Virus record (IMG/VR): IMGVR_UViG_3300005253_000382
Coordinates: 1 to 55,920 of that record
From: a virus
DNA: 55,920 bases
Direction: 5' to 3' (one strand)
Under the pieces are notes generated by a model. It worked only from the letters and a program-made list of their open reading frames with translations. It was not told where the DNA came from and made no database searches. Of the stretch, positions 11,318 to 55,495 are shown piece after piece. Made by a program: the position numbers and the translations under genes. The first letter of the stretch is position 1. Each line of letters opens with the position of its first letter.

Positions 11318-12076
11318 TTACACCGTCCAGTCTCGATTAGCGCTGACATGCAAATAATCCACATAGCATACTTCCGCACCACCAGCGTGGTCGCCAAGTA
11401 AGGCTACAACAGCCAAGTCTTCTGTAGTTGAGGCAGCACCTGTGATGGTTTGCAATAGTGTGCCATCAATGTACCAGCGAGCCGTGCCGTTAGTGTCTAT
11501 CTCGAACCTCAGAATCTGCCATTCTCCGTTTACGATAAGGTTATTGGGAAAGTCAACTGATACTCCGAGTGTTGGCGCTGTTCTAGTTCCCCCCTTGTAG
11601 ACACCATGCCAAGAAGTTGCATAAGAAGTTGCCTCAGCATCAAAGTAGAAGCCGACAAAGTCATCTGCTGAAATAGTAAAAGTATTAGTAGAAATGGAGA
11701 TTATATCATCTTCAATGGATACGGTATCTGCATTTTCGTTGGTTAGACCGAAGGCAAAACCCTTGGTAAGTACATCAGCAAATTGCACACGGCACTCTGC
11801 AACCAATGTTCCCATCTTCCCAATCTCAAAACACAATGATGTACTAAGTCCTATAGCGTGGTTATCGTCTCCTGACGTTGTGTAAATACCTACACCACTC
11901 AGGGGAACTAGGGCTTCATCAACTATTATGCCCGAATCGCTCTGTTCGCCACCATCTCCAATAACCCTGAACGGGCCGAGGTCGCCTGAAGCAGCCGTCT
12001 CAGCAACAATCCACTCTGCCCCTAAGAAATCCTCAAATAACTCAATTCTTCCTGTGCCACTTTGTATAGTAGCCAT
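11318..12076 (-). CDS. adhesin-like virion protein, tandem paralogue 1
   Basis: 252 residues, the upstream member of a tandem pair (partner at 10547-11308). Motif order: RIELFEDFLGAEWIVAETAA, SGIIVDEALVPLSG, CFEIGKMGTLVAECRVQF, SWHGVYKGG, GEWQILRFEIDTNGTARWY, then YVDYLHVSANRDWTV. The fold is probably a LamG-like sandwich. Duplication followed by loop divergence suggests selection for altered binding or for heteromers. Preceded by GGAG; follows the small HNH gene directly. Confidence 0.7.
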   Translation of the reverse strand: MATIQSGTGRIELFEDFLGAEWIVAETAASGDLGPFRVIGDGGEQSDSGIIVDEALVPLSGVGIYTTSGDDNHAIGLSTSLCFEIGKMGTLVAECRVQFADVLTKGFAFGLTNENADTVSIEDDIISISTNTFTISADDFVGFYFDAEATSYATSWHGVYKGGTRTAPTLGVSVDFPNNLIVNGEWQILRFEIDTNGTARWYIDGTLLQTITGAASTTEDLAVVALLGDHAGGAEVCYVDYLHVSANRDWTV

Positions 12077-12289
12077 TTATTTCTCCCTTAAGAGTTTTAA
12101 CTCTTTTTCCAAATTTCTTATCCTCGCCACATAAGGGGCAGTTACCTGACCCAAATGAACAGGATTTCTGGGGATAGCAGCAAGATTCTCTATATGAACG
12201 TCTCCCCTATTTCCGTTCAGAGAGTGAATTAACCACCCTTTAGGGATTAGACCGTGATGCTCTTGCCATACTTCACGTCTTTCGCTCAT
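12077..12289 (-). CDS. compact HNH endonuclease, possibly truncated
   Basis: 70 residues. Contains the core of a phage HNH homing endonuclease: EHHGLIPKGWLIHSLNGNRG followed by H.ENLAAIP, then a basic coiled C-terminus (RIRNLEKELKLLREK). Compared with the 145-residue plus-strand HNH protein (31444-31881), it lacks the N-terminal zinc region and the upstream strand. The usual HH pair at the active site is here HS (IHSLNG), so catalysis may be lost. It sits between the capsid and fibre genes, a typical homing-gene position. Confidence 0.7.
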   Translation of the reverse strand: MSERREVWQEHHGLIPKGWLIHSLNGNRGDVHIENLAAIPRNPVHLGQVTAPYVARIRNLEKELKLLREK

Positions 12290-12301
12290 TCATTAACTCT
12301 T

Positions 12302-13177
12302 CTAAGAAGTTGGAGCAGTCGCATCTGACTTTATCTGGTATACCCAGTTTGAAAGCCTGATACCATAAGCATATTCATCATAGTGATAAACATGATCTCC
12401 ACCACCACCCCTCTTCTCATTCCTTACGGATATGATTCGGGGGGCACGACCTTGAACCAGGATAATTCCCTCCATAGCAAAGACACCACCAATAGCATCA
12501 TCCGAACCATCTATAGTGATGTTGCCATCCTCATAAACCTCCACACCTGCTATTGGGAGGTCAAACCTGTTCTGGAATACTCTGGCAGTTGGGCCTTCAT
12601 CAACCACATACGCCCCTACACCAGCTACTAGTTCGTCATAGAGGTCTTTTAGCTGGAAGCCGTGACTCACAAACCGTATTGGTTTATGCCCAGGCTCAGT
12701 AGTATTAGAAGTAACATTGTAGGAAGCTGCGGCAACATAGCCCGAAGTTAAAGTCGTTCCAGCACCAGGGGAAGCTGTAGTACCAGCACTGGCAAATAAT
12801 ACCAGCCCATCCTCATCCTTCTTCCTCTGAATTGCGTTCTGCCCAAGACTACCTATCTTAGATAAGCCTATTTTGCTGATTCTCGCCCCTACCCGGTCAG
12901 TGATAAATGTCTCAATACCCACCACTGTCGGAGTAATTGTTATCAGTGAATCAACTAACTGCTGAGGGTTTTCCAAATCCGTATTTTCAGTTATAGCCTG
13001 TGCGGTTAACTGGTCATACTTGATTTCCTGCCACGAAAGACCAATGCCCTCACCAAGCATTGCTTTATCTACCAATTGGGGCATAACCCCCTCAAATTCC
13101 CTGACTATCCTTGCTGAAGAACGGACATCATCCAAACTATCAGCAAGTGAGCCAGTGGTTGTCCATCCTGCTGGCAT
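12302..13177 (-). CDS. major capsid protein (HK97-like)
   Basis: 291 residues. Placed directly after the scaffold gene and well inside the head module. N-terminal helical part, then 'TPTVVGIETFITDRVGARISK' as the spine-helix region, an extended E-loop-like segment rich in G/T/S (residues ~125-165), and a C-terminal beta-rich axial part (EDGNITIDGSDDAIGGVF ... YHYDEYAYGIRLSNWVYQIK). The size suits the scaffold-dependent members of this family. No other candidate capsid gene exists. Start supported by AAGGAG before the ATG. Confidence 0.8.
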   Translation of the reverse strand: MPAGWTTTGSLADSLDDVRSSARIVREFEGVMPQLVDKAMLGEGIGLSWQEIKYDQLTAQAITENTDLENPQQLVDSLITITPTVVGIETFITDRVGARISKIGLSKIGSLGQNAIQRKKDEDGLVLFASAGTTASPGAGTTLTSGYVAAASYNVTSNTTEPGHKPIRFVSHGFQLKDLYDELVAGVGAYVVDEGPTARVFQNRFDLPIAGVEVYEDGNITIDGSDDAIGGVFAMEGIILVQGRAPRIISVRNEKRGGGGDHVYHYDEYAYGIRLSNWVYQIKSDATAPTS

Positions 13178-22958: not shown

Positions 22959-23153
22959 CTAGTTTATCGCTATACCCTGAGAGCGGAGATATTTCAGCAT
23001 CTCCGATTCCATTTCCTCAACGCACTCTTGCGGTAGTTTGTGGTCTTCTGAATATTCGATAAAGTGTGCACCACCCAATCTGCTATAAGTCCCATCACAA
23101 TAATTGGTTATGACTCCCCTTATTATCCTCTGTATCTCTTCCTGTTTGACCAT
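22959..23153 (-). CDS. hypothetical small protein between terminase and portal
   Basis: 64 residues. Helical N-terminus (EEIQRIIRGVITNYC) and acidic helical C-terminus (LPQECVEEMESEMLKYLRSQ). ATG overlaps the terminase stop. No recognisable domain. Position suggests a packaging accessory role, by inference only. Confidence 0.6.
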   Translation of the reverse strand: MVKQEEIQRIIRGVITNYCDGTYSRLGGAHFIEYSEDHKLPQECVEEMESEMLKYLRSQGIAIN

Positions 23154-24778
23154 TAACTTACCCCCTGTAATTGTCTATCTATAAGTTTCTGTATCACTGG
23201 TGGGACATCTTTTTCTCCAAAAGTTAATGTCTCAATGGGTTTTAAGATTTCCTGCTTCATATCCCTCTTTTTCAAAAGGCATATCCCTGTCATTATAACA
23301 TAGTCATCGTGAGTTGAGGACATTGCTTCTATTTTACCATTTTTGTTGGAGTTTCTTATCATATTAAAGAAATGCCTCAATCCCTGTTCGTTGTAAATCC
23401 TTATTTGCATATCGTTTATACCAGAAATCAAACCACCGAATAAGTCCGTCCTTGACTTTTCATTAGTAGAAAACCCTATCTTTGAAAGCATCTCGGGTCT
23501 GTCAAGTTGACTCCAAGTAATATCTCCCTTATGACCTAATTTCTTATATCCCAATTCAACAGCTTTCTTTATGACAATTCTCCCACCACCAGCGACATTA
23601 TTCTCAATCCACCACCAAGGGTTTTTGTAATGCTTTAAAAGTTCCACAGAATACTCGGTGAATTCGTCAGGCTCTAACTTATTAGACATAATATCAGCCA
23701 CCATATCACCGTGTTCGTCCATTACCCCTGTAACCGAAAAGTCCGCACCAACCCCCCAACTAACATCAGAAGAGGCGACATACTTATTCCCAACATGATA
23801 ATCTTTATAAATATGAATCGAGTCGTCCAATTCCCATCCTTCGTTTATATGCCCCCTGACATCCTGCATCATTAGATTAAGAACCTTCTTATCAAACACC
23901 GCTACAGATTCAGCCGTAGAAAGAGCTTCTTCTATAGAATGAGGATAATTTTTAGCCATATAAAGAGTAGGACTTAATTTGGCTAAATCTCTTTCGGGGA
24001 TAGTTCGCATGGTCTCTTCATACCATTTTTCATCCCTATCAGGTATAACATCCCAAGAGAAAAAAAGAGGATAGAAACCGTTTTTCTTTTTAAGAGCATC
24101 CTCAAAGATAGCTGTTGCCAAATTATCGTTCCCAAACGGGTCTGCGGTGAAAATTGAAATAACCTGCCCGCCGCCGTCTATAGTTGGTTTGGCATGGGTA
24201 TAATTCGTATCAGCGTATTCATGCTTGGCGTGTTCATCCCATACTAAGATAGAAGCTGTCTCCCCAATCCCAGCCGAGGTCGTTGAGGGTAATGCCTTGA
24301 TAACACTTTTAATAACAGGAAAACCTATCGCTTCTTTTGAGTCGGGGTCTAATTTGAATTTCAAAAATTTGGGTAATTGGTCATAAACATTTCTGCACTT
24401 TTGTAAAAGAGCCTTCGCCTCATCCTGTCCCTGAGAGAATAAAAGAACATTCGCCCCTATATGACCCAAAGCATACCAGGTTACATAAACAGCAATTGTC
24501 GTTGATAAACCTATCTGGCGAGCCTTTAAGACAGAGATGTGCTTTTCCCTTAAAAGGGTGGCAATCGTTTCTTGTGTATGTTCCCACATCTCTAAAGGAA
24601 CAATACTCTCACTTACTTGTCCTGGCATTGGGGGTCGGATAATCCTCGCCCACTTCAGAAAATGTAAAAAGTCAAGCTGACAGATAGCCCTTTCGTGTTC
24701 CCAAACTTCTCTGTCTTCTGGGGTTAAATCTGTCTCTTCTTTATAAGCACAATTAGTCAGGATTTCTTCATAGTTCAT
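23153..24778 (-). CDS. terL: terminase large subunit
   Basis: 541 residues with both expected modules. ATPase: Walker A-like KARQIGLST (residues 85-93) and Walker B ILVWDE (177-182) with the catalytic Glu. RNase H-like nuclease: acidic positions in SSDVSWGVGADFS (D338), WIENN (E392) and THDDYVI (D491/D492). It packages DNA through the portal encoded next. Start ATG has only a weak upstream purine stretch. Its first residues (MNYEEIL) mirror those of the small gene just upstream (MNYEDIL), suggesting a local duplication of the start region. Confidence 0.9.
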   Translation of the reverse strand: MNYEEILTNCAYKEETDLTPEDREVWEHERAICQLDFLHFLKWARIIRPPMPGQVSESIVPLEMWEHTQETIATLLREKHISVLKARQIGLSTTIAVYVTWYALGHIGANVLLFSQGQDEAKALLQKCRNVYDQLPKFLKFKLDPDSKEAIGFPVIKSVIKALPSTTSAGIGETASILVWDEHAKHEYADTNYTHAKPTIDGGGQVISIFTADPFGNDNLATAIFEDALKKKNGFYPLFFSWDVIPDRDEKWYEETMRTIPERDLAKLSPTLYMAKNYPHSIEEALSTAESVAVFDKKVLNLMMQDVRGHINEGWELDDSIHIYKDYHVGNKYVASSDVSWGVGADFSVTGVMDEHGDMVADIMSNKLEPDEFTEYSVELLKHYKNPWWWIENNVAGGGRIVIKKAVELGYKKLGHKGDITWSQLDRPEMLSKIGFSTNEKSRTDLFGGLISGINDMQIRIYNEQGLRHFFNMIRNSNKNGKIEAMSSTHDDYVIMTGICLLKKRDMKQEILKPIETLTFGEKDVPPVIQKLIDRQLQGVS

Positions 24779-48777: not shown

Positions 48778-49833
48778 TTACCCCCTCGTATACAACCTCT
48801 TGCTTCTCGGTTTGCTGCCACCTAGTTCATTGATAACTTCGTTATATAGTTCTCTCTTCCATCCCATATAATCAGCCCAAGTCCCGGGCCCGCCTATGTT
48901 AATAGTGTTTATGAAACTTCTGGAATCACTCATTGCAGCCCTGGCAGCCACAAGGCGTCCAAATATTTCCTCATCCTGATCCCTTAAAGTGTTCTTCCTG
49001 AATGTTAAAACCTCAGCCGTATTTGAGGCGTCACTGTCTAATCCCGGGAAGAAACTAATGGTAGCTGTATTACTGGCTATCGTGGTGGCAGTAGTTACAG
49101 TATAAACGAACCTCTGATTTTCAAGATGAAACTCCTCCCCTATCTCAATCGTACCGGCTCCCATTGTTGCTGATGCCAGGGAAGTAGCCCCTGCTGTTGT
49201 AGTAGTTGCCACCTGCCCCGTTAAACCAACCAACTGTGAGATTTTGTGGGCGACTGCAAACCTGACTAAAACATCTACATCAGGTAATCGGTCGAGCGTA
49301 GAATCACTGTCAGGTATCTGGTCTACCATTATCTCAATAACGTCATCCAATTCCTTCCAGTTCCTCTTTTCACCTACGGGATATTCTACGGAATCAATCC
49401 ACATATAGGGCATAAAATCCCCTATGAATATCTGCCTGTTATTGGTACACCTTTTATTATAGATTCGATAGGCTTCATTGGCACTAAAAATATCCTTGCT
49501 AATTGAGAATATGGAGGTTGAATCCTGAGCTAGAACCACAGCGTAAGTGTTTTGGCTAAGATTATGCACTACCTTTTCGTCAGTGGCATCCCCCGCTAAG
49601 AATTGAGCCTTCACAGAGTCGGTTAATTTATCGGTTGTACCGGTGACATCATCCCCAAACCTTGACTCCAATTTGAAGATAACATCCACTAGATGAGGAC
49701 GATAAGTAGAGAACTTCTTTAACCCTTCTTCAATCCAGTAATCCCATTCCACTGTTCCAGCAACAGCATTACCAGTATCCTGATATATCTGCTCAACGAG
49801 ATTACGGAATTCAGAATATGTTCGACTTCCCAT
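48778..49833 (-). CDS. tail/neck structural protein with inserted beta domain
   Basis: 351 residues. N-terminal helical part (RTYSEFRNLVEQIYQDTGNA...WDYWIEEGLKKF) resembles adaptor proteins, and the end (YMGWKRELYNEVINELGGSK) is helical too. Between ~205 and 285 there is a beta insert with TTTTAGATSLASATMGAG then IEIGEEFHLENQRFVYTV, a common phage add-on domain. Its TAA is followed in frame by the next tail gene. Confidence 0.65.
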   Translation of the reverse strand: MGSRTYSEFRNLVEQIYQDTGNAVAGTVEWDYWIEEGLKKFSTYRPHLVDVIFKLESRFGDDVTGTTDKLTDSVKAQFLAGDATDEKVVHNLSQNTYAVVLAQDSTSIFSISKDIFSANEAYRIYNKRCTNNRQIFIGDFMPYMWIDSVEYPVGEKRNWKELDDVIEIMVDQIPDSDSTLDRLPDVDVLVRFAVAHKISQLVGLTGQVATTTTAGATSLASATMGAGTIEIGEEFHLENQRFVYTVTTATTIASNTATISFFPGLDSDASNTAEVLTFRKNTLRDQDEEIFGRLVAARAAMSDSRSFINTINIGGPGTWADYMGWKRELYNEVINELGGSKPRSKRLYTRG

Positions 49834-49836
49834 CTG

Positions 49837-49884
49837 TCACCTCTTCTTTGCCGATTTCAATGTTTTCTTTATATGTTTTGGCAT
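49837..49884 (-). CDS. possible tiny basic peptide
   Basis: 15 residues, MPKHIKKTLKSAKKR, with a TAATG overlap to the DUF3008-like gene. Very short, kept at low confidence because the coupling and basic composition mirror other tiny genes here. Confidence 0.25.
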   Translation of the reverse strand: MPKHIKKTLKSAKKR

Positions 49885-50009
49885 TATTTCTTCCTCGTAA
49901 ATTCCTTTAGTTTCTTCTCGGATAACCCTGTCTTGGTTTTCTTCCCTGCCCTCCGCCTTGAAAGCTCGGCTCCAAAGAACCTTCTCTGCTTTGTACTCTT
50001 AGCTGGCAT
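49884..50009 (-). CDS. DUF3008-like small basic protein
   Basis: 41 residues, MPAKSTKQRRFFGAELSRRR then AGKKTKTGLSEKKLKEFTRK. The pattern MPAKS..Q.RFFG...R(R)..K...S..K..EF is that of a small phage family known from many genomes, with unknown function. Follows the thiamine-enzyme beta gene with an 11-base overlap. Confidence 0.75.
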   Translation of the reverse strand: MPAKSTKQRRFFGAELSRRRAGKKTKTGLSEKKLKEFTRKK

Positions 50010-50538
50010 TACTCACCTCAATCAATAAACTACTCCTGTCACTATTCAAGGCACACTTATAACTCTCAACAACATCCTCAGCCTTGTCTAGTTTAATGAC
50101 ATCCACGTTCTTTAATATGTCCCTGAAGCCTGAAGTGTAATCAGAGCAATGCTGTATCCCGGGATATAAAGGTTCGGTTGCTCCTACTGCTGTACGTATG
50201 ATTACTTTAGGATTGAACTCTCCATTGCTCATTTCACTTATCTTGTCCAGATGATTGACTAGCTGGTTCATTGCCAGGATTAAGAAATCAAATCTCGGAT
50301 AAATGCTAATCGGGATATACCCCTCTAAAGATAACCCGATACTCATACCTAATTGGGTATCTTCCATAATTCCAACCTCTAATCTCTTGTCCATTGGTAC
50401 ACCTTTTAACGTGTCATACATACCACTCCCCGAATACTCCACTGTCTGCCCTAAGAATATCGTTCTGGGGTCACTCCCTAAAAGGGTCATTGCTTTTGTC
50501 AGTTCTTCATACATCAAAAATTCACCCACTGCCCGCAT
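49999..50538 (-). CDS. thiamine-diphosphate enzyme, pyrimidine-binding subunit (E1-beta-like)
   Basis: 179 residues. GQTVEYSGSG, then GIMEDTQLGMSIGLSLEGYI (E59 aligned with the catalytic Glu that activates thiamine) and PRFDFLILAMNQLVNHLDKI are the transketolase/E1-beta pyrimidine-domain motifs. It stops after this domain; the usual C-terminal transketolase domain (about 130 residues) is absent. Overlaps the alpha subunit gene by 25 bases, implying 1:1 coupling. Acts with the alpha subunit on a 2-keto acid or ketose donor; substrate unknown. Confidence 0.8.
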   Translation of the reverse strand: MRAVGEFLMYEELTKAMTLLGSDPRTIFLGQTVEYSGSGMYDTLKGVPMDKRLEVGIMEDTQLGMSIGLSLEGYIPISIYPRFDFLILAMNQLVNHLDKISEMSNGEFNPKVIIRTAVGATEPLYPGIQHCSDYTSGFRDILKNVDVIKLDKAEDVVESYKCALNSDRSSLLIEVSNAS

Positions 50539-51065
50539 CCGTGATGAGGAAAGCCCCTTTCATAGCTATATCTCCATACATCCTTTGTTGGAGTATTCAC
50601 ACTAAAACCGTTATCTTCCACCACAAATTTAATCGGTAACTCGTGTCCGTTAGCATACTTAACGCATTCGTGAAAAACCCCTGTCTCAGCCCCCATATCA
50701 CCGATGAATACCCATACCTTATTAGGAGCATTCCGCCTCTTTAGTCCCAATGCCACACCAAGGGCTATCGGTAAACACCCCCCCACAATAGAAGAAGTGA
50801 AAAACTTATGCTCTTTACTATTGATGTGCATTGACCTGTTATCCAGTATCTCAGCCCGTAACCATTCCACACCCATCCCCTTTAATAAGGCGTGGTAATG
50901 ACTCCTATGAGTGGAGAATACCCAATCATCAGGGTGAATATTCCTGAATATGCTAATCAACTGCTCCTCATTCCCCTTACTCAAATGCACCGGCGAATGT
51001 ATCTTCCCACCAATGTAGGCAGTTTTAATCCCTTCCTCAAAGTCTATTAAGGTCTTGGTGTCCAC
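50514..51065 (-). CDS. thiamine-diphosphate enzyme, diphosphate-binding subunit (E1-alpha-like)
   Basis: 183 residues. FSTHRSHYHALLKGM, SSIVGGCLPIALGVALGLK and FIGDMGAETGVFHECVKYA ... VVEDNGFSVNTPT are E1-alpha signatures. D123 and N152 are the Mg/diphosphate ligands; the usual GDG has become GDM. About half the length of standard E1-alpha, missing the N- and C-terminal extensions. No E2 lipoyl gene is present, so the intermediate is probably passed to an aldehyde or sugar acceptor. Part of the modification cassette. Confidence 0.8.
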   Translation of the reverse strand: MDTKTLIDFEEGIKTAYIGGKIHSPVHLSKGNEEQLISIFRNIHPDDWVFSTHRSHYHALLKGMGVEWLRAEILDNRSMHINSKEHKFFTSSIVGGCLPIALGVALGLKRRNAPNKVWVFIGDMGAETGVFHECVKYANGHELPIKFVVEDNGFSVNTPTKDVWRYSYERGFPHHGCGQWVNF

Positions 51066-52267
51066 TCTAGCATCTCCTGTATCTGGATTACTGCTTGCTT
51101 CCCATACTTCTTCTGTATCATTTTCAGGTAATCTTCCCTTGAGAAGTATTCCTGAAAAGCCCTGTCTCTGAACTCCAACACTTCCTTAGAAGTCAAATAC
51201 TTGGTCGGTAAGGGCTTCAGGTTAGGAGAATACTGGTCGTAATCCTCCCATTTATCAGGTAAATCCTCTTTAGGGGTGTCTTCGTACAATTGAGAGCCTG
51301 GATAAGCCATCGCACAGTAGAAATTAACATACTCACACTTTAATTCCTCAGCGAAGTCTAAAGTCTCCCTCATTGATTTAAGGTCGTCATCAGGCAGGCC
51401 AAATATGAAGTTCCCCAGAACACTTATACCCGCCTCTTTGGTCATCTCAGTGGCTCTCATCATATCTTCCGTACTTTGTTTCTTACCTATACCTTTGAGA
51501 ACATCCTCGTTAGCTGATTCAAAACCATAAGCCAGCCAGTTTATGCCGACTTGCTTCATTCTTTTTAACATCTCAGGTTGTACCAAACCTACCTTAGCAT
51601 ACGCCCACACATTCAGATTCTTCCCTTCCAAAACATCACATATCTGGTAGACGTGACTTGGGCTTATTGTAAACAACTCATCGGCTATCTTCAGGTTCTT
51701 AACTCCTTTAGAAACCAGATAATCTATCTCCTCACCTACATCTTGTGGCTCCCTGTAAGTTACCCCCTTATATAGCGTGTGGATGTTACAATAAGAGCAA
51801 CTAAAAGGACACCCGAATGACGTATAAATAACTCCGTAATTACTCCTGTCACTCCCATTCAGACAGTGCCAATTGTGAGCTTTATATTTAGAGAAGTCTA
51901 TTAAGTCCCAACGAGGGACAAGCTCACACAATTGCTCAGGAGAAGGTATTGGCATACAATAGCCTTTTTGAGTTACAGCTTGATGATGCAGTCCCATTAT
52001 CTTTGGGGTTTTTATAAGCCTATAATAAAGTTCACCCACTATTCCCATCTTAGGCGTAGAAGACGCTGAAGGATTTGCTCCCATTGCTACAAGAACTGAC
52101 TTCTCCTTTCCTATCTGAGCTACTGTTTCCCACGATGACCATCCCTCAACCTCAGCATCGAGTATTTTATCAGCCTTCAAATAACCCGCTAGATAAGCAC
52201 ACCATATCGGAGGCTCTATCGCTGATTGAGGCGAAGGATTCCTATGATTTGGATTAACGATAATCAC
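51047..52267 (-). CDS. B12-binding-type radical SAM protein
   Basis: 406 residues from a GTG with AGGAG upstream. N-terminal Rossmann-like region (MIIVNPN...PPIWCAYLAGYLK, VLVAMGANPSA) as in cobalamin-binding radical SAM proteins, though the DxHxxG cobalamin ligand is not evident. The iron-sulfur motif CPFSCSYC is at C153, C157, C160. ADELFTISPSH, YGFESANEDVLKGIGKKQS and GNFIFGLPDDD are standard barrel elements. C-terminal ~110 residues resemble the variable domain of these enzymes. Could carry out a C- or P-methylation or ring rearrangement on a sugar; substrate unknown. Confidence 0.85.
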   Translation of the reverse strand: MIIVNPNHRNPSPQSAIEPPIWCAYLAGYLKADKILDAEVEGWSSWETVAQIGKEKSVLVAMGANPSASSTPKMGIVGELYYRLIKTPKIMGLHHQAVTQKGYCMPIPSPEQLCELVPRWDLIDFSKYKAHNWHCLNGSDRSNYGVIYTSFGCPFSCSYCNIHTLYKGVTYREPQDVGEEIDYLVSKGVKNLKIADELFTISPSHVYQICDVLEGKNLNVWAYAKVGLVQPEMLKRMKQVGINWLAYGFESANEDVLKGIGKKQSTEDMMRATEMTKEAGISVLGNFIFGLPDDDLKSMRETLDFAEELKCEYVNFYCAMAYPGSQLYEDTPKEDLPDKWEDYDQYSPNLKPLPTKYLTSKEVLEFRDRAFQEYFSREDYLKMIQKKYGKQAVIQIQEMLEWTPRP

Positions 52268-52352
52268 GTAATGCTCCTGCGGGGAAGGCTGCTACTAAAT
52301 GTAACCTATTAGCCTTACCAATGTCAGTTCCGATTGCTTCTCTATATGCCAT
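52254..52352 (-). CDS. small protein within sugar cassette
   Basis: 32 residues, AYREAIGTDIGKANRLHLVA then AFPAGALRDYR. Strong GGAGGTACAA at the ATG, which lies inside the end of the cupin gene; the stop overlaps the radical SAM start. May be a remnant of a fibre gene or a real linker peptide. Confidence 0.4.
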   Translation of the reverse strand: MAYREAIGTDIGKANRLHLVAAFPAGALRDYR

Positions 52353-52677
52353 TTGTACCTCCATTTGTAGAACCTGAAAGACGAATAACATCATCCTCCC
52401 TGTGAGGTGTACTTACTTCTAAAATAACCGCATCTGAAATCCCAAAGAACTTATGTGGAGTATTAGGGTTAATGGTATAAGGCTCTTCCAAAAGAAACTC
52501 ATCACCATCGATTGTCAAACTAACCTCACCCTCTAAGCAATAAAAGGTCTCCTGTTTCTCAGGATGATAGTGATAGGAACAATTAGCACCTGCATCCAGG
52601 TAGAGCAATTTACCGCAATATTTATCGTTGTTCACTACCCAGATCTCCTTCCCCCAGTTCTTCTTGACCTCAATCAC
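52342..52677 (-). CDS. cupin (sugar-phosphate isomerase/epimerase-like)
   Basis: 111 residues. HYHPEKQETFYCLEGE (H36, H38, E43) and NTPHKF (H75) supply the metal-binding set of the cupin fold, and STPHREDDVIRLS is the ending seen in cupins of nucleotide-sugar clusters. Single cupin domain; the sugar-nucleotidyltransferase half found in some bifunctional homologues is absent. Role: isomerase or epimerase on a phosphosugar, or a metal-bound sensor. Overlaps the kinase gene by 8 bases. Confidence 0.75.
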   Translation of the reverse strand: MIEVKKNWGKEIWVVNNDKYCGKLLYLDAGANCSYHYHPEKQETFYCLEGEVSLTIDGDEFLLEEPYTINPNTPHKFFGISDAVILEVSTPHREDDVIRLSGSTNGGTNGI

Positions 52678-53470
52678 AATAAATTACCTTTGCCCCGTCA
52701 GTATCAAACTTAAACTCCACCTGTTTTATCTTCAATGCCTGCCCGACATTATCCTGCTTGTCCGGCTCAACCACAAAGACTATAAACCCTCCACCTCCAG
52801 CCCCTAAAAGTTTCCCTCCTATCGCACCGGCTTTGAGAGCTTTATCATAAATGGTATCCGTGAGGGGAGAGGAAACATCATCAGCCAGTTTCTTCTTGAG
52901 TTGCCATGACATATCAAGTGCTGCCCCAAACTCTGAGGGGGTGTTGTAGTCATTCAATGCCACCTCCTTTAACTGATGAAGTATATCCTGATTCTCATCC
53001 ACTCTTTCAAGCTGATGCTCCACTATCTTCCCAGCACTCCTATATTGTCCTGTATCAAACAACATTAAGTAAGGCTCAAGCCATCTGTAATCTACTTCCT
53101 CATCTACTATCCCGGAAGCATAAAACCTTAATCTGCGAAACCCACCCATAGCACAAATATACTGATCTTGATAACCAACATGACCATCCAGTTTATCCCT
53201 CTCCCATATCGTAGCGAGACCTGCTATCTCCTCATTACTCTTATCCGTGCAAGCCTTCAGTAACCCTACCGTAAAAGCCGAACTCGTTGCCATACCACTT
53301 CTCACAGGTAAATCAGAATGCGACCACATCTTCCCGCTATCTACTCCTACATAACAATACTTATTTATCGAGGTGGCTAGAACTACTCCCCCGTGTTCGT
53401 TAAAATATTCAGGGTAATCCGTCCCTCCTCCAAAAAAGGATATTCTAAATGGTGTCCTGCTTATAATCAT
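52670..53470 (-). CDS. GHMP-family sugar kinase, HddA-like, internally shortened
   Basis: 266 residues. Start RTPFRISFFGGGTDYPEYFN and the end GKLLGAGGGGF are the D-glycero-D-manno-heptose 7-phosphate kinase (HddA) signatures. The phosphate-binding motif PAG.GLGSSS is replaced by RSGMATSSAF (57-66). About 60 residues that normally separate the first strand region from this motif are missing, so the protein is shorter than the ~330-residue norm. Might still bind a heptose or related sugar phosphate. ATP use is likely but not certain. Confidence 0.75.
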   Translation of the reverse strand: MIISRTPFRISFFGGGTDYPEYFNEHGGVVLATSINKYCYVGVDSGKMWSHSDLPVRSGMATSSAFTVGLLKACTDKSNEEIAGLATIWERDKLDGHVGYQDQYICAMGGFRRLRFYASGIVDEEVDYRWLEPYLMLFDTGQYRSAGKIVEHQLERVDENQDILHQLKEVALNDYNTPSEFGAALDMSWQLKKKLADDVSSPLTDTIYDKALKAGAIGGKLLGAGGGGFIVFVVEPDKQDNVGQALKIKQVEFKFDTDGAKVIYCD

Positions 53471-54516
53471 GGGAAGCTAACGCACATACTATCGCTCTCA
53501 ATTGCAGTGACCTGTTTATTGTATTCACTCCACGTACACCTGGCACACTCTACAGCAGGGTCAATATCTTTAAGCAATGCCCTGTGTTCATTGGAACCCC
53601 ACTCTTTAATCTCAAACCTTTCCTCCATCCTGTGGTCAACACAAACGTACATCTTCTTATCACTGCATATCTGCACTACTAAAGGTGAAGCCAGGCATTT
53701 ATTGAAGTCATGCTTAACGTGAAACTCATTATCATATTTATGCGTTACCGTGTGTACATGGAAATCCTCCCCTTCCAACTCATGCAATTGACTAAACACA
53801 TAATGCACCTTCTCCATATCCAGTTCAGCCCTTTCCCCGGTAAAGTCTTTTCTCTCTAAATCTACAGGTCGAACATGAAAGTCCTGAACACCTAATTCTT
53901 TAGCAACCTTACCGGTATAAAGTAACGTGTCTATAGTCTCAGGCAGAACCAATGCCTTAATGCAAATATCAGTTCTCTGTCTATGGAGTGCCAACCACTT
54001 TATATTATCTAACACCTTCAAGCAGTCATCACTACCCCTTACCTTCCTGTAGACCTCAGGGTCCGCACTGTCCAATGAAATCCCGACCCACCTGCAAAGC
54101 TGTAACTCATTACGTACATCCGAATCCATGAGTACCCCATTGGTAATTATCGAACACTCCATTCCGAGATTAACACCATAAGCAGTCATCCCTTTTATGT
54201 TCTCATTCAAGAGAGCTTCACCACCACCACCCCAGCAGAAGGCTTTAACCCCCCATTCAGAAAGATAATTAAGAGTGTCTTTAATGTATTCTCCATCCCA
54301 CTTAAACTTAGCCGGTAAATATCGCTGAGAATTACAGTAATAACAATTCTGATTACAAGCGCTTATAGGGTCAAGGGAAGCCTCAATCGGTGCAGGAAGT
54401 TCCCCACCATCAAGCCATGCCACTATCTTTTTGTAATGCTCGTAGTACGTTAATCCTTTGTACGAGTTAAAACTTGAGTATTTATTAGCGTCAGACCACT
54501 CTTTTATCTTTTCCAT
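53467..54516 (-). CDS. radical SAM/SPASM-like protein
   Basis: 349 residues. CNQNCYYC (C54, C58, C61) is the [4Fe-4S] site. WGGGGEALLNENI is the GGE motif and ISLDSADPEVYRKVRG the SAM-ribose strand. C-terminal cysteines (C268, C278, C287, then CARC) form a SPASM-like auxiliary cluster region. Such enzymes modify peptides, sugars or sugar nucleotides (for example epimerisation or dehydrogenation). First enzyme of the cassette. Overlaps upstream and downstream genes by 1 and 4 bases. Confidence 0.85.
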   Translation of the reverse strand: MEKIKEWSDANKYSSFNSYKGLTYYEHYKKIVAWLDGGELPAPIEASLDPISACNQNCYYCNSQRYLPAKFKWDGEYIKDTLNYLSEWGVKAFCWGGGGEALLNENIKGMTAYGVNLGMECSIITNGVLMDSDVRNELQLCRWVGISLDSADPEVYRKVRGSDDCLKVLDNIKWLALHRQRTDICIKALVLPETIDTLLYTGKVAKELGVQDFHVRPVDLERKDFTGERAELDMEKVHYVFSQLHELEGEDFHVHTVTHKYDNEFHVKHDFNKCLASPLVVQICSDKKMYVCVDHRMEERFEIKEWGSNEHRALLKDIDPAVECARCTWSEYNKQVTAIESDSMCVSFP

Positions 54517-54710
54517 TATTTTGTATACCTCTCAATGACTTCACAAGGTTTACCCTGATAGCATCTGTGGATATTACATGATGGTCTTATTCCATTAACA
54601 ATCTTAGTCTTAGAAACCTCTGCCTTCCTTTTGCCAAAGACTGACCTCGCCTCTGGTTCTGTATCAAAATCTTCGTTAGGTTTGCCATCCATCATTACTC
54701 TGTATTTCAT
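54516..54710 (-). CDS. small Cys-containing protein
   Basis: 64 residues, KYRVMMDGKPNEDFDTEPEA then a basic stretch and SCNIHRCYQGKPCEV with three cysteines. Sits between the LamG adhesin and the SPASM enzyme with a 4-base overlap upstream and a 1-base overlap downstream. It could be a peptide substrate or partner of the enzyme next door, by position only. Confidence 0.55.
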   Translation of the reverse strand: MKYRVMMDGKPNEDFDTEPEARSVFGKRKAEVSKTKIVNGIRPSCNIHRCYQGKPCEVIERYTK

Positions 54711-55495
54711 CTATACCCCCCCTTGGTAGCTAGGAAAATACCTCGGATTGTATTAGAAGGTAGAGGCTTATCGTAAATTATAACCTCTCCTATCTTTCCT
54801 CCGAACATGAGGACTGAGGTAGCTCTTCTTAAAGTTCCAACAGCAAAACTATCCCGCAAATCAGTATCAGCAAACCAATCTCCGTTGTTAGCACCTCCGA
54901 TAACAGTTAACGTTCCTTCATCTAAACCATCTATCAAGATTGAGTAGGCTGTGCCATTAGATACCAACGCCCCAAGATGCCAAGTATCGTCCCTAACATC
55001 TGTTACACCACGAAGTTCGTCATTGGTATCCGCATTTCGTTGCTGCACAACAAGTAATCCACTACTATTTATCTCTAAGAAAAGGTAATTAGCATTAGGC
55101 CCAGCCTCATCTGACGAACTAAAAAGACAACCAGATGTGCCCGATATGCAATTAAACCATACCAAGATTGTACCCGCAGAGTCACCGCTTCTAAAGTTAG
55201 CTACAGTGGTAAAGACCTCATCGTCAACGTCATCAAAACTTAACACCCGTTTCCCACTGTCTGAGATAGCCCAAGTAGCCCCGTCAATGGTACCGTGATT
55301 TTCAAATTTAGTTTTATCAAACCAAAAAAAGGGGTTTGGTTCGTGTAGGGGAGATACAAGATGTAGCACCTCGGCTTTAGCTAAATTGGTACTAGGGGAG
55401 TATAGGTCGTCAATAGCATAACTAGCCACGCCCTTACTAAAGTCACGGCTCACGCTGCCTATCTGGTTAGGTCTTATGATATGTGATTGTACCAT
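54707..55495 (-). CDS. LamG-type receptor-binding tail protein
   Basis: 262 residues. Residues ~50-250 form a LamG domain: FFWFDKTKFENHGTIDGATW, GTILVWFNCISG, YLFLEINSSGLLVVQQ, DDTWHLGALVSNGTAYSILI then DGLDEGTL and a GGKIGEVIIYDKPL end strand. N-terminal 50 residues anchor it to the virion, by analogy. Last binding protein before the sugar cassette on the same transcript. Confidence 0.8.
   Translation of the reverse strand: MVQSHIIRPNQIGSVSRDFSKGVASYAIDDLYSPSTNLAKAEVLHLVSPLHEPNPFFWFDKTKFENHGTIDGATWAISDSGKRVLSFDDVDDEVFTTVANFRSGDSAGTILVWFNCISGTSGCLFSSSDEAGPNANYLFLEINSSGLLVVQQRNADTNDELRGVTDVRDDTWHLGALVSNGTAYSILIDGLDEGTLTVIGGANNGDWFADTDLRDSFAVGTLRRATSVLMFGGKIGEVIIYDKPLPSNTIRGIFLATKGGYR

Follow-up and report, generated by a model that had tools for sequence, protein, structure and literature searches.

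What does a block of six enzyme genes do among the structural genes of a phage? The block lies in the first 55,920 positions (1-55920, here called the window) of the 66,101-base virus record IMGVR_UViG_3300005253_000382, where it spans 49999-54516 on the minus strand. It encodes two radical S-adenosylmethionine (SAM) enzymes, an HddA-like kinase, a cupin and two halves of a thiamine enzyme. We consider it fairly likely that the block encodes part of a heptose-type nucleotide-sugar pathway in compacted form, a cassette that came from a bacterial glycan operon and has been retained in a phage structural gene block. The initial annotation had proposed that it makes or modifies a sugar for the virion or the host surface. 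This proposal is well supported by the kin of its genes, whose neighbours in viruses and bacterial operons include nucleotidyltransferases, epimerases, DegT enzymes and glycosyltransferases. The cassette is composed as follows.

53467-54516, minus: radical SAM enzyme with a twitch domain, 349 amino acids (aa) (PF04055)
52670-53470, minus: HddA-like GHMP kinase, compact form, 266 aa (GHMP_kinases N and C; top NCBIfam match HddA)
52342-52677, minus: cupin, like the ManC C-terminal part and WbuC, 111 aa (Cupin_2, MannoseP_isomer; GMP_PMI and WbuC weak)
51047-52267, minus: B12-class radical SAM enzyme with a shortened N-terminal domain, 406 aa, called B12A (PF04055)
50514-51065, minus: E1-alpha-like half of the thiamine enzyme, called TPPa, 183 aa (E1_dh)
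49999-50538, minus: E1-beta-like pyrimidine half of the thiamine enzyme, called TPPb (Transket_pyr, under its cut-off; phrog_34187)
49884-50009, minus: basic open reading frame (ORF) of 41 aa (MPAKSTKQRRFFGAELSRRR...), last in the cassette, seen in the sequence

All six enzyme genes are open, and the active-site motifs of the cassette proteins are intact. Compared with the nearest relative, virus contig L003, all six are under purifying constraint (nonsynonymous changes, pN, 0.16-0.36; synonymous changes, pS, 0.69-0.91), values of which only the direction counts because synonymous divergence is saturated in most genes. A chance or overlapping-ORF artefact was ruled out by this constraint, by the kin of the genes and by high-confidence structural models. 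The six genes and their overlaps of 1-25 bases were annotated correctly at the outset, but the arrangement is not gap-free: 74 bases (52268-52341) separate the cupin and B12A genes. A 32-codon ORF (MAYREAIGTDIGKANRLHLVAAFPAGALRDYR) spans this gap. Whether the two thiamine genes overlap by 25 bases depends on which start is chosen, a TGATG stop/start at 50514 being at least as likely. Scanning for promoters and terminators gave counts no higher than in shuffled sequence, and PHROGs and Pfam comparisons of most large window ORFs yielded few assignments.

Analyses of B12A kin revealed a bacterial counterpart of the cassette. Orthologues, defined by an E-value (E) below 1e-110 (other paralogues in two test genomes scored about 1e-60 or weaker), were present in 82 of 384 genomes from the phylum of an Omnitrophota metagenome-assembled genome (MAG) and in 19 of 395 from that of a Deltaproteobacteria MAG. 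At 40 bacterial B12A loci with about 1.5 kb of flank, counted by eye, we observed a thiamine-type enzyme 18 times and HddA 16 times. Among 17 loci of about 19 kb, a thiamine-type enzyme was found near B12A in every case, HddA in 14, an HddC-like nucleotidyltransferase in 14 and a DegT enzyme in 13. The 40-locus count is less biased, because gene content partly guided the choice of the 17 loci and lenient phmmer thresholds were applied to distant E1 proteins. The recurrent operon (L217-L232, L176), common in Omnitrophota, combines a thiamine enzyme, B12A, HddA, an HddC-like nucleotidyltransferase, an RfbH/ColD-like DegT enzyme and epimerases. In loci such as L220 and L221, an epimerase, HddA, the HddC-like nucleotidyltransferase and B12A are accompanied by transketolase or an E1 pair and by DegT, with a GmhB-like phosphatase in L220. 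The order in L221 is family 2 glycosyltransferase (GT2), epimerase, HddA, nucleotidyltransferase, B12A, the same short TPPa/TPPb pair and then the DegT enzyme; NCBIfam and PDB comparisons identified its nucleotidyltransferase as HddC-like and its DegT enzyme as RfbH/ColD-like. The phage cassette is tied in this way to an uncharacterized bacterial operon that recurs in Omnitrophota and another phylum, which could open an unknown sugar pathway.

Virus kin were collected by scans with three cassette proteins and labelled by phmmer, and the labels were backed by Pfam. At least six other virus contigs carry the cassette set again, its order and partners altered.

L003: TPPa, TPPb, twitch protein, HddA, cupin, B12A
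L014: TPPa, TPPb, twitch protein, cytidylyltransferase, HddA, B12A, then capsid and GT2
L015: as L014, without HddA
L002: twitch protein, GmhA-like SIS protein, HddA, B12A and true transketolase halves
L011: transketolase halves, cupin, twitch protein, HddA, B12A, aminotransferase, cytidylyltransferase
L013: acetolactate-synthase-like thiamine enzyme split into two ORFs

A search for the same gene order elsewhere, as initially suggested, thus returned the gene set in viruses and bacterial operons, but with its order reshuffled. Of 27 virus loci with B12A, 20 have a thiamine-type enzyme next to it, compared with none of 55 loci of distant twitch proteins. Cytidylyltransferase-like genes lie inside the cassettes of L014, L015, L019 and L020. 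The thiamine enzyme is exchanged among three families (E1, transketolase and acetolactate-synthase-like), and the SIS protein and the cupin seem to replace each other between virus cassettes; these exchanges suggest that the roles of those steps are conserved. The kinases of the window, L002, L003, L014 and L036 have in common one internal deletion of about 40 residues and retain their catalytic motifs, and this compact form in several phages indicates long residence there. Computation thus establishes what the genes are, that their motifs are intact, that the set recurs and that a bacterial operon corresponds to it. Elsewhere, a TPPb-twitch-TPPa trio occupies 10388-12606 of L008 (LR756501, a 735-kb uncultured phage) within a long glycan gene cluster. 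L004 (MT835828, "Bacteriophage sp."), among the best kinase matches in the phage collection, carries a normal HddA-HddC/HAD-GmhA cluster and was not used as phage evidence because it looks like a fragment of a Firmicutes chromosome.

The remaining enzymes of the cassette carry the features expected of their families. The cupin, possibly a sugar-phosphate isomerase, has an intact metal site, HxHx4E...H. The thiamine pair contains both the thiamine pyrophosphate (TPP)-binding motif and the pyrimidine domain of 2-oxoacid dehydrogenase E1: TPPa carries the motif GD...EDN and matches pyruvate dehydrogenase E1 alpha structures, and TPPb, with an alternative start at 50514, ends after the pyrimidine domain and lacks a Transketolase_C domain. 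Described initially as a split enzyme, the pair is indeed encoded by two genes but is not a broken gene; it has the ordinary E1 alpha/beta arrangement, also seen in bacterial operon L221. Cyanophages have a fused form.

The structural models of both radical SAM proteins look like enzymes whose substrates are sugars or aminocyclitol glycosides. For B12A, which keeps the CX3CX2C motif, the AlphaFold2 model (predicted local distance difference test score, pLDDT, 92) had as its top Foldseek match AprD4 (6fd2, with paromamine; E 1.9e-18, query TM-score [TMq] 0.73), a radical SAM diol dehydratase (PMC5461906). AprD4 was also the best profile match (E 1.9e-29). Other B12-class enzymes match this fold too, and the structural neighbours include MgmA, TsrM, CysS and TokK. 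The score of B12A against the NCBIfam AprD4 model NF033070, 51.9 bits, lies below its cut-off of 500. No Pfam match to the B12-binding domain (PF02310) was obtained for B12A, the N-terminal Rossmann domain being largely lost.

In the twitch protein, a CX3CX2C motif (C54, C58, C61) is followed by C274-x17-C292 and C324-x2-C327, and all seven cysteines are invariant in 57 of 57 virus copies. This count fits a single auxiliary cluster with four cysteines, like that of BtrN (PMC9012708). The top Foldseek matches of its AlphaFold2 model (pLDDT 87.5) were DesII, SuiB, SkfB and BlsE, and anSME also matched; its profile also matches BtrN, the sequence match being confined to the radical SAM core. Within 4 kb of TPPa in 76 dereplicated loci, we found the twitch protein 21 times, a zinc alcohol dehydrogenase (ADH) 20 times and both together never (Fisher p 0.0008, kinship not corrected for). 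The TPPa tree contains a well-supported 36-row clade in which every row has one of the two and none has both, and starred branches force at least two changes between them. This exclusive alternation suggests that the twitch protein is a putative alcohol-oxidizing enzyme, a transfer of function that is tentative for the window protein because most alternating twitch proteins are only 20-25% identical to it. The alternation of an oxygen-sensitive twitch enzyme with a zinc ADH in viral cassettes amounts to a natural replacement experiment. A comparable replacement is that of BtrN and NAD-dependent dehydrogenases in aminoglycoside pathways.

The surroundings of the cassette extend beyond the window, into the rest of the record.

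48778-49833, minus: tail-like structural gene adjoining the cassette (phrog_1302, weak)
54516-54710, minus: 64-aa ORF between the LamG gene and the cassette (sub-threshold Pfam match only)
54707-55495, minus: LamG/concanavalin A-like virion protein, upstream of the cassette (PF13385; phrog_8510, virion structural protein)
record 57620-59203 (L007:4621-6204), minus: second B12-class radical SAM enzyme, about 528 aa
L007:6201-6767, minus: HNH-endonuclease-like gene, between the second B12-class radical SAM and GT2 genes
record 59763-60581 (L007:6764-7582), minus: GT2 glycosyltransferase
record 61436-62329 (L007:8437-9330), minus: major head protein

The LamG gene is upstream as annotated, but not directly, since the 64-aa ORF intervenes. 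Tail genes do follow: the tail-like gene comes after the 41-aa ORF, and L002 has the same neighbour (11576-12646). GT2 and the second B12-class radical SAM enzyme are encoded 2-5 kb upstream, in the same record and on the same strand. The initial statement that a glycosyltransferase is lacking is true of the window and false of the record. A host enzyme or a direct modification had been proposed from this absence, which is an edge effect of the window. The companion statement on nucleotidyltransferases stands, in that the 66-kb record, which is incomplete, gave no match to PF01467 or PF00483. Sugar-biosynthesis genes thus lie among phage structural genes with a glycosyltransferase in the same record, a context also found in L002, L003 and L014. 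Downstream of the capsid gene, the genes for GT2 and the second B12-class enzyme are a conserved pair, seen also in L002 (1229-3639) and L003 (1-2482). HNH-endonuclease-like genes occur inside or beside the sugar genes (L007:6201-6767; L002:7164-7631) and are possible cassette-shuffling agents.

Two phages may have been joined in this record, or it may be a mosaic. At the window end a run of N (a scaffold gap) is followed by a Nextera-like adapter remnant, AGATGTGTATAAGAGACAG (L007:2922-2955, record about 55921-55955), which if translated gives a spurious peptide within a 210-aa ORF. Two divergent major-head-protein genes (12302-13177 and L007:8437-9330) are 29% identical. The first gene set (head 12302-13177, terminase 23153-24778) resembles contig G007 at 57-69%, and the second part of the record, from about 46 kb up, which contains the cassette, resembles contigs G008 and G009. 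The adjoining window stretches 110-203 and 332-905 match the start (99%) and end (79%) of G008, as if G008 were circularly permuted and the gene at its end ran on into this record. The phage setting of the cassette does not depend on this record, because G008 and G009 carry capsid, GT2, second B12-class radical SAM and cassette contiguously, G008 with the tail gene as well. As the second part of the record is incomplete, pathway genes not seen here cannot count as absent from the phage.

How could these enzymes work together? We infer every reaction of the following scheme, as well as the order of its steps, its product and its acceptor. The thiamine enzyme would supply or transfer a two-carbon unit, as transketolase would in sister cassettes, and the cupin (in L002, the GmhA-like SIS protein) would convert ketose to aldose. 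The twitch radical SAM protein would oxidize a sugar alcohol to a ketone, and B12A would remove or rearrange a hydroxyl in the manner of AprD4, or methylate a carbon. The HddA-like kinase would phosphorylate C1, and a nucleotidyltransferase, host-encoded here and cassette-encoded in relatives, would activate the sugar. The upstream-encoded GT2 may then transfer it, most likely onto a virion protein or a host surface glycan. The sugar probably decorates the phage's own particle or the host surface; the position of the GT2 gene beside the capsid gene was counted in favour of a sugar pathway. Should GT2 have the virion as its target, phages would be producing a rare sugar coat for themselves. A bolder version, which we hold only tentatively, is that a thiamine enzyme, AprD4-like and BtrN-like enzymes and a compact kinase in a phage structural block act together in a pathway not yet described, one that leads to a heptose-type sugar tailored by radical chemistry (deoxy, branched or keto) and used for virion decoration.

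Several observations weigh against a heptose-type pathway as we draw it. The kinase scores 113.1 bits against an NCBIfam HddA equivalog cut-off of 600, and its substrate may not be heptose because this is so far below. Only the radical domain of AprD4 aligns to B12A by sequence, and the fold neighbours of B12A include methyltransferases. The twitch/ADH exchange is mostly seen with twitch proteins 20-25% identical to that of the window, and no twitch protein was found beside B12A in the 17 bacterial loci, so it may serve a separate step. Neither GmhA nor a nucleotidyltransferase was found in this record. A complete GDP-heptose pathway was rejected, with the kinase under the HddA cut-off, no HddC-type nucleotidyltransferase in the record and no GmhA-type SIS protein in the window cassette.

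Some of the same observations could be read differently. YerE, or the E1-like AviB1/AviB2, is reported to attach a two-carbon branch to keto sugars. The cassette might similarly yield a branched-chain sugar, the radical SAM enzymes making the ketone and tailoring the branch, and a keto acceptor would suit a thiamine enzyme with an alcohol-oxidizing partner. In bacteria, the thiamine enzyme and B12A repeatedly have as neighbours sugar dehydratases and RfbH/ColD-like DegT enzymes, the latter producing 3-deoxy-4-keto sugars; DegT enzymes and a dehydratase are present in L019/L020; and E1, transketolase and acetolactate-synthase-like (L013) enzymes replace one another. However, a dehydratase and a DegT enzyme are both lacking from the window cassette, and the kinase with its GmhA-, HddC- and GmhB-like partners indicates early heptose chemistry, which leaves a branched product possible and rather doubtful. 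We give a similarly guarded hearing to the idea that B12A is a cobalamin-dependent C-methyltransferase producing a C-methyl sugar. Its structural neighbours MgmA, TsrM, CysS and TokK and the full-length B12-binding domain (PF02310) of its kin in L176 are consistent with this activity, whereas AprD4 is the best match by both profile and fold, and B12A itself has no PF02310 match and lacks a large part of the N-terminal Rossmann domain.

Two further explanations dispense with a sugar product of the cassette, and we judge both very unlikely. The radical SAM proteins might directly modify a peptide or virion protein: they are encoded among virion genes, a precursor might be supplied by the 64-aa ORF, and the twitch model also matches SuiB, SkfB and anSME. 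Pfam and NCBIfam scans, however, gave no recognition element of ribosomally synthesized and posttranslationally modified peptides (RiPPs), the neighbours across the kin are sugar genes, and DesII and BlsE act on sugars and AprD4 on an aminoglycoside. A RiPP system was accordingly rejected, nothing beyond general twitch similarity speaking for it. Alternatively, the cassette might be residual, non-functional cargo from a host glycan locus, as the incomplete pathway in this record and the unstable gene order among phages might indicate; "stuffer DNA" was raised for cyanophage lipopolysaccharide (LPS) genes by Sullivan et al. (PMC3037559). Cargo would be hard to reconcile with six open genes, intact motifs, low pN against near-saturated pS, and a compact HddA form whose presence in several phages indicates long residence. 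A partial heptose-type pathway is the reading that we prefer.

Comparison with known systems places the cassette in a familiar kind with an unfamiliar content. Phage LPS and nucleotide-sugar cassettes are well known as a kind (PMC3037559, PMC7029224), and radical SAM cassettes are mentioned in the pelagimyophage paper (PMC7029224). A search of the open-access literature, outside which most subscription papers fall, for radical SAM, transketolase, heptose, O-antigen and kinase together returned no description, and neither this enzyme combination nor the bacterial operon behind it was found there. The initial view that this is not a described phage system accordingly holds for the exact set within that literature, but not for the kind. 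Clusters of T4-like cyanophages (S-SM2, P-TIM68) and pelagimyophages (PMC3037559, PMC7029224) have in common with it a thiamine enzyme, kinase, cupin, nucleotidyltransferase and glycosyltransferases; the cyanophages examined differ in having a zinc ADH, a fused thiamine enzyme and a PfkB kinase (S-SM2), with no B12A next to HddA. The TPP motif and pyrimidine half of the window pair resemble pyruvate dehydrogenase E1 alpha/beta and transketolase, true transketolase halves standing in for it in L002 and L011, but the window halves are much shorter, lack Transketolase_C and have no E2/E3 genes alongside. Like BtrN, the twitch radical SAM dehydrogenase of butirosin, the window protein has CX3CX2C and four auxiliary-cluster cysteines and in related cassettes alternates with an alcohol dehydrogenase, whereas its nearest folds are DesII, SuiB, SkfB and BlsE. 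AprD4, the 1,2-diol dehydratase of apramycin, is a B12-class radical SAM enzyme acting on a sugar-like substrate and the best fold and profile match to B12A, but the two are about 16% identical in structural alignment, and no AprD3-like reductase was identified. The GDP-D-glycero-alpha-D-manno-heptose pathway (GmhA-HddA-GmhB-HddC), finally, is without the two radical SAM enzymes and the dedicated thiamine enzyme, but has its likeness in the HddA-like kinase of the cassette, the GmhA-like SIS protein of L002 and the HddC- and GmhB-like genes of the bacterial operons that contain B12A.

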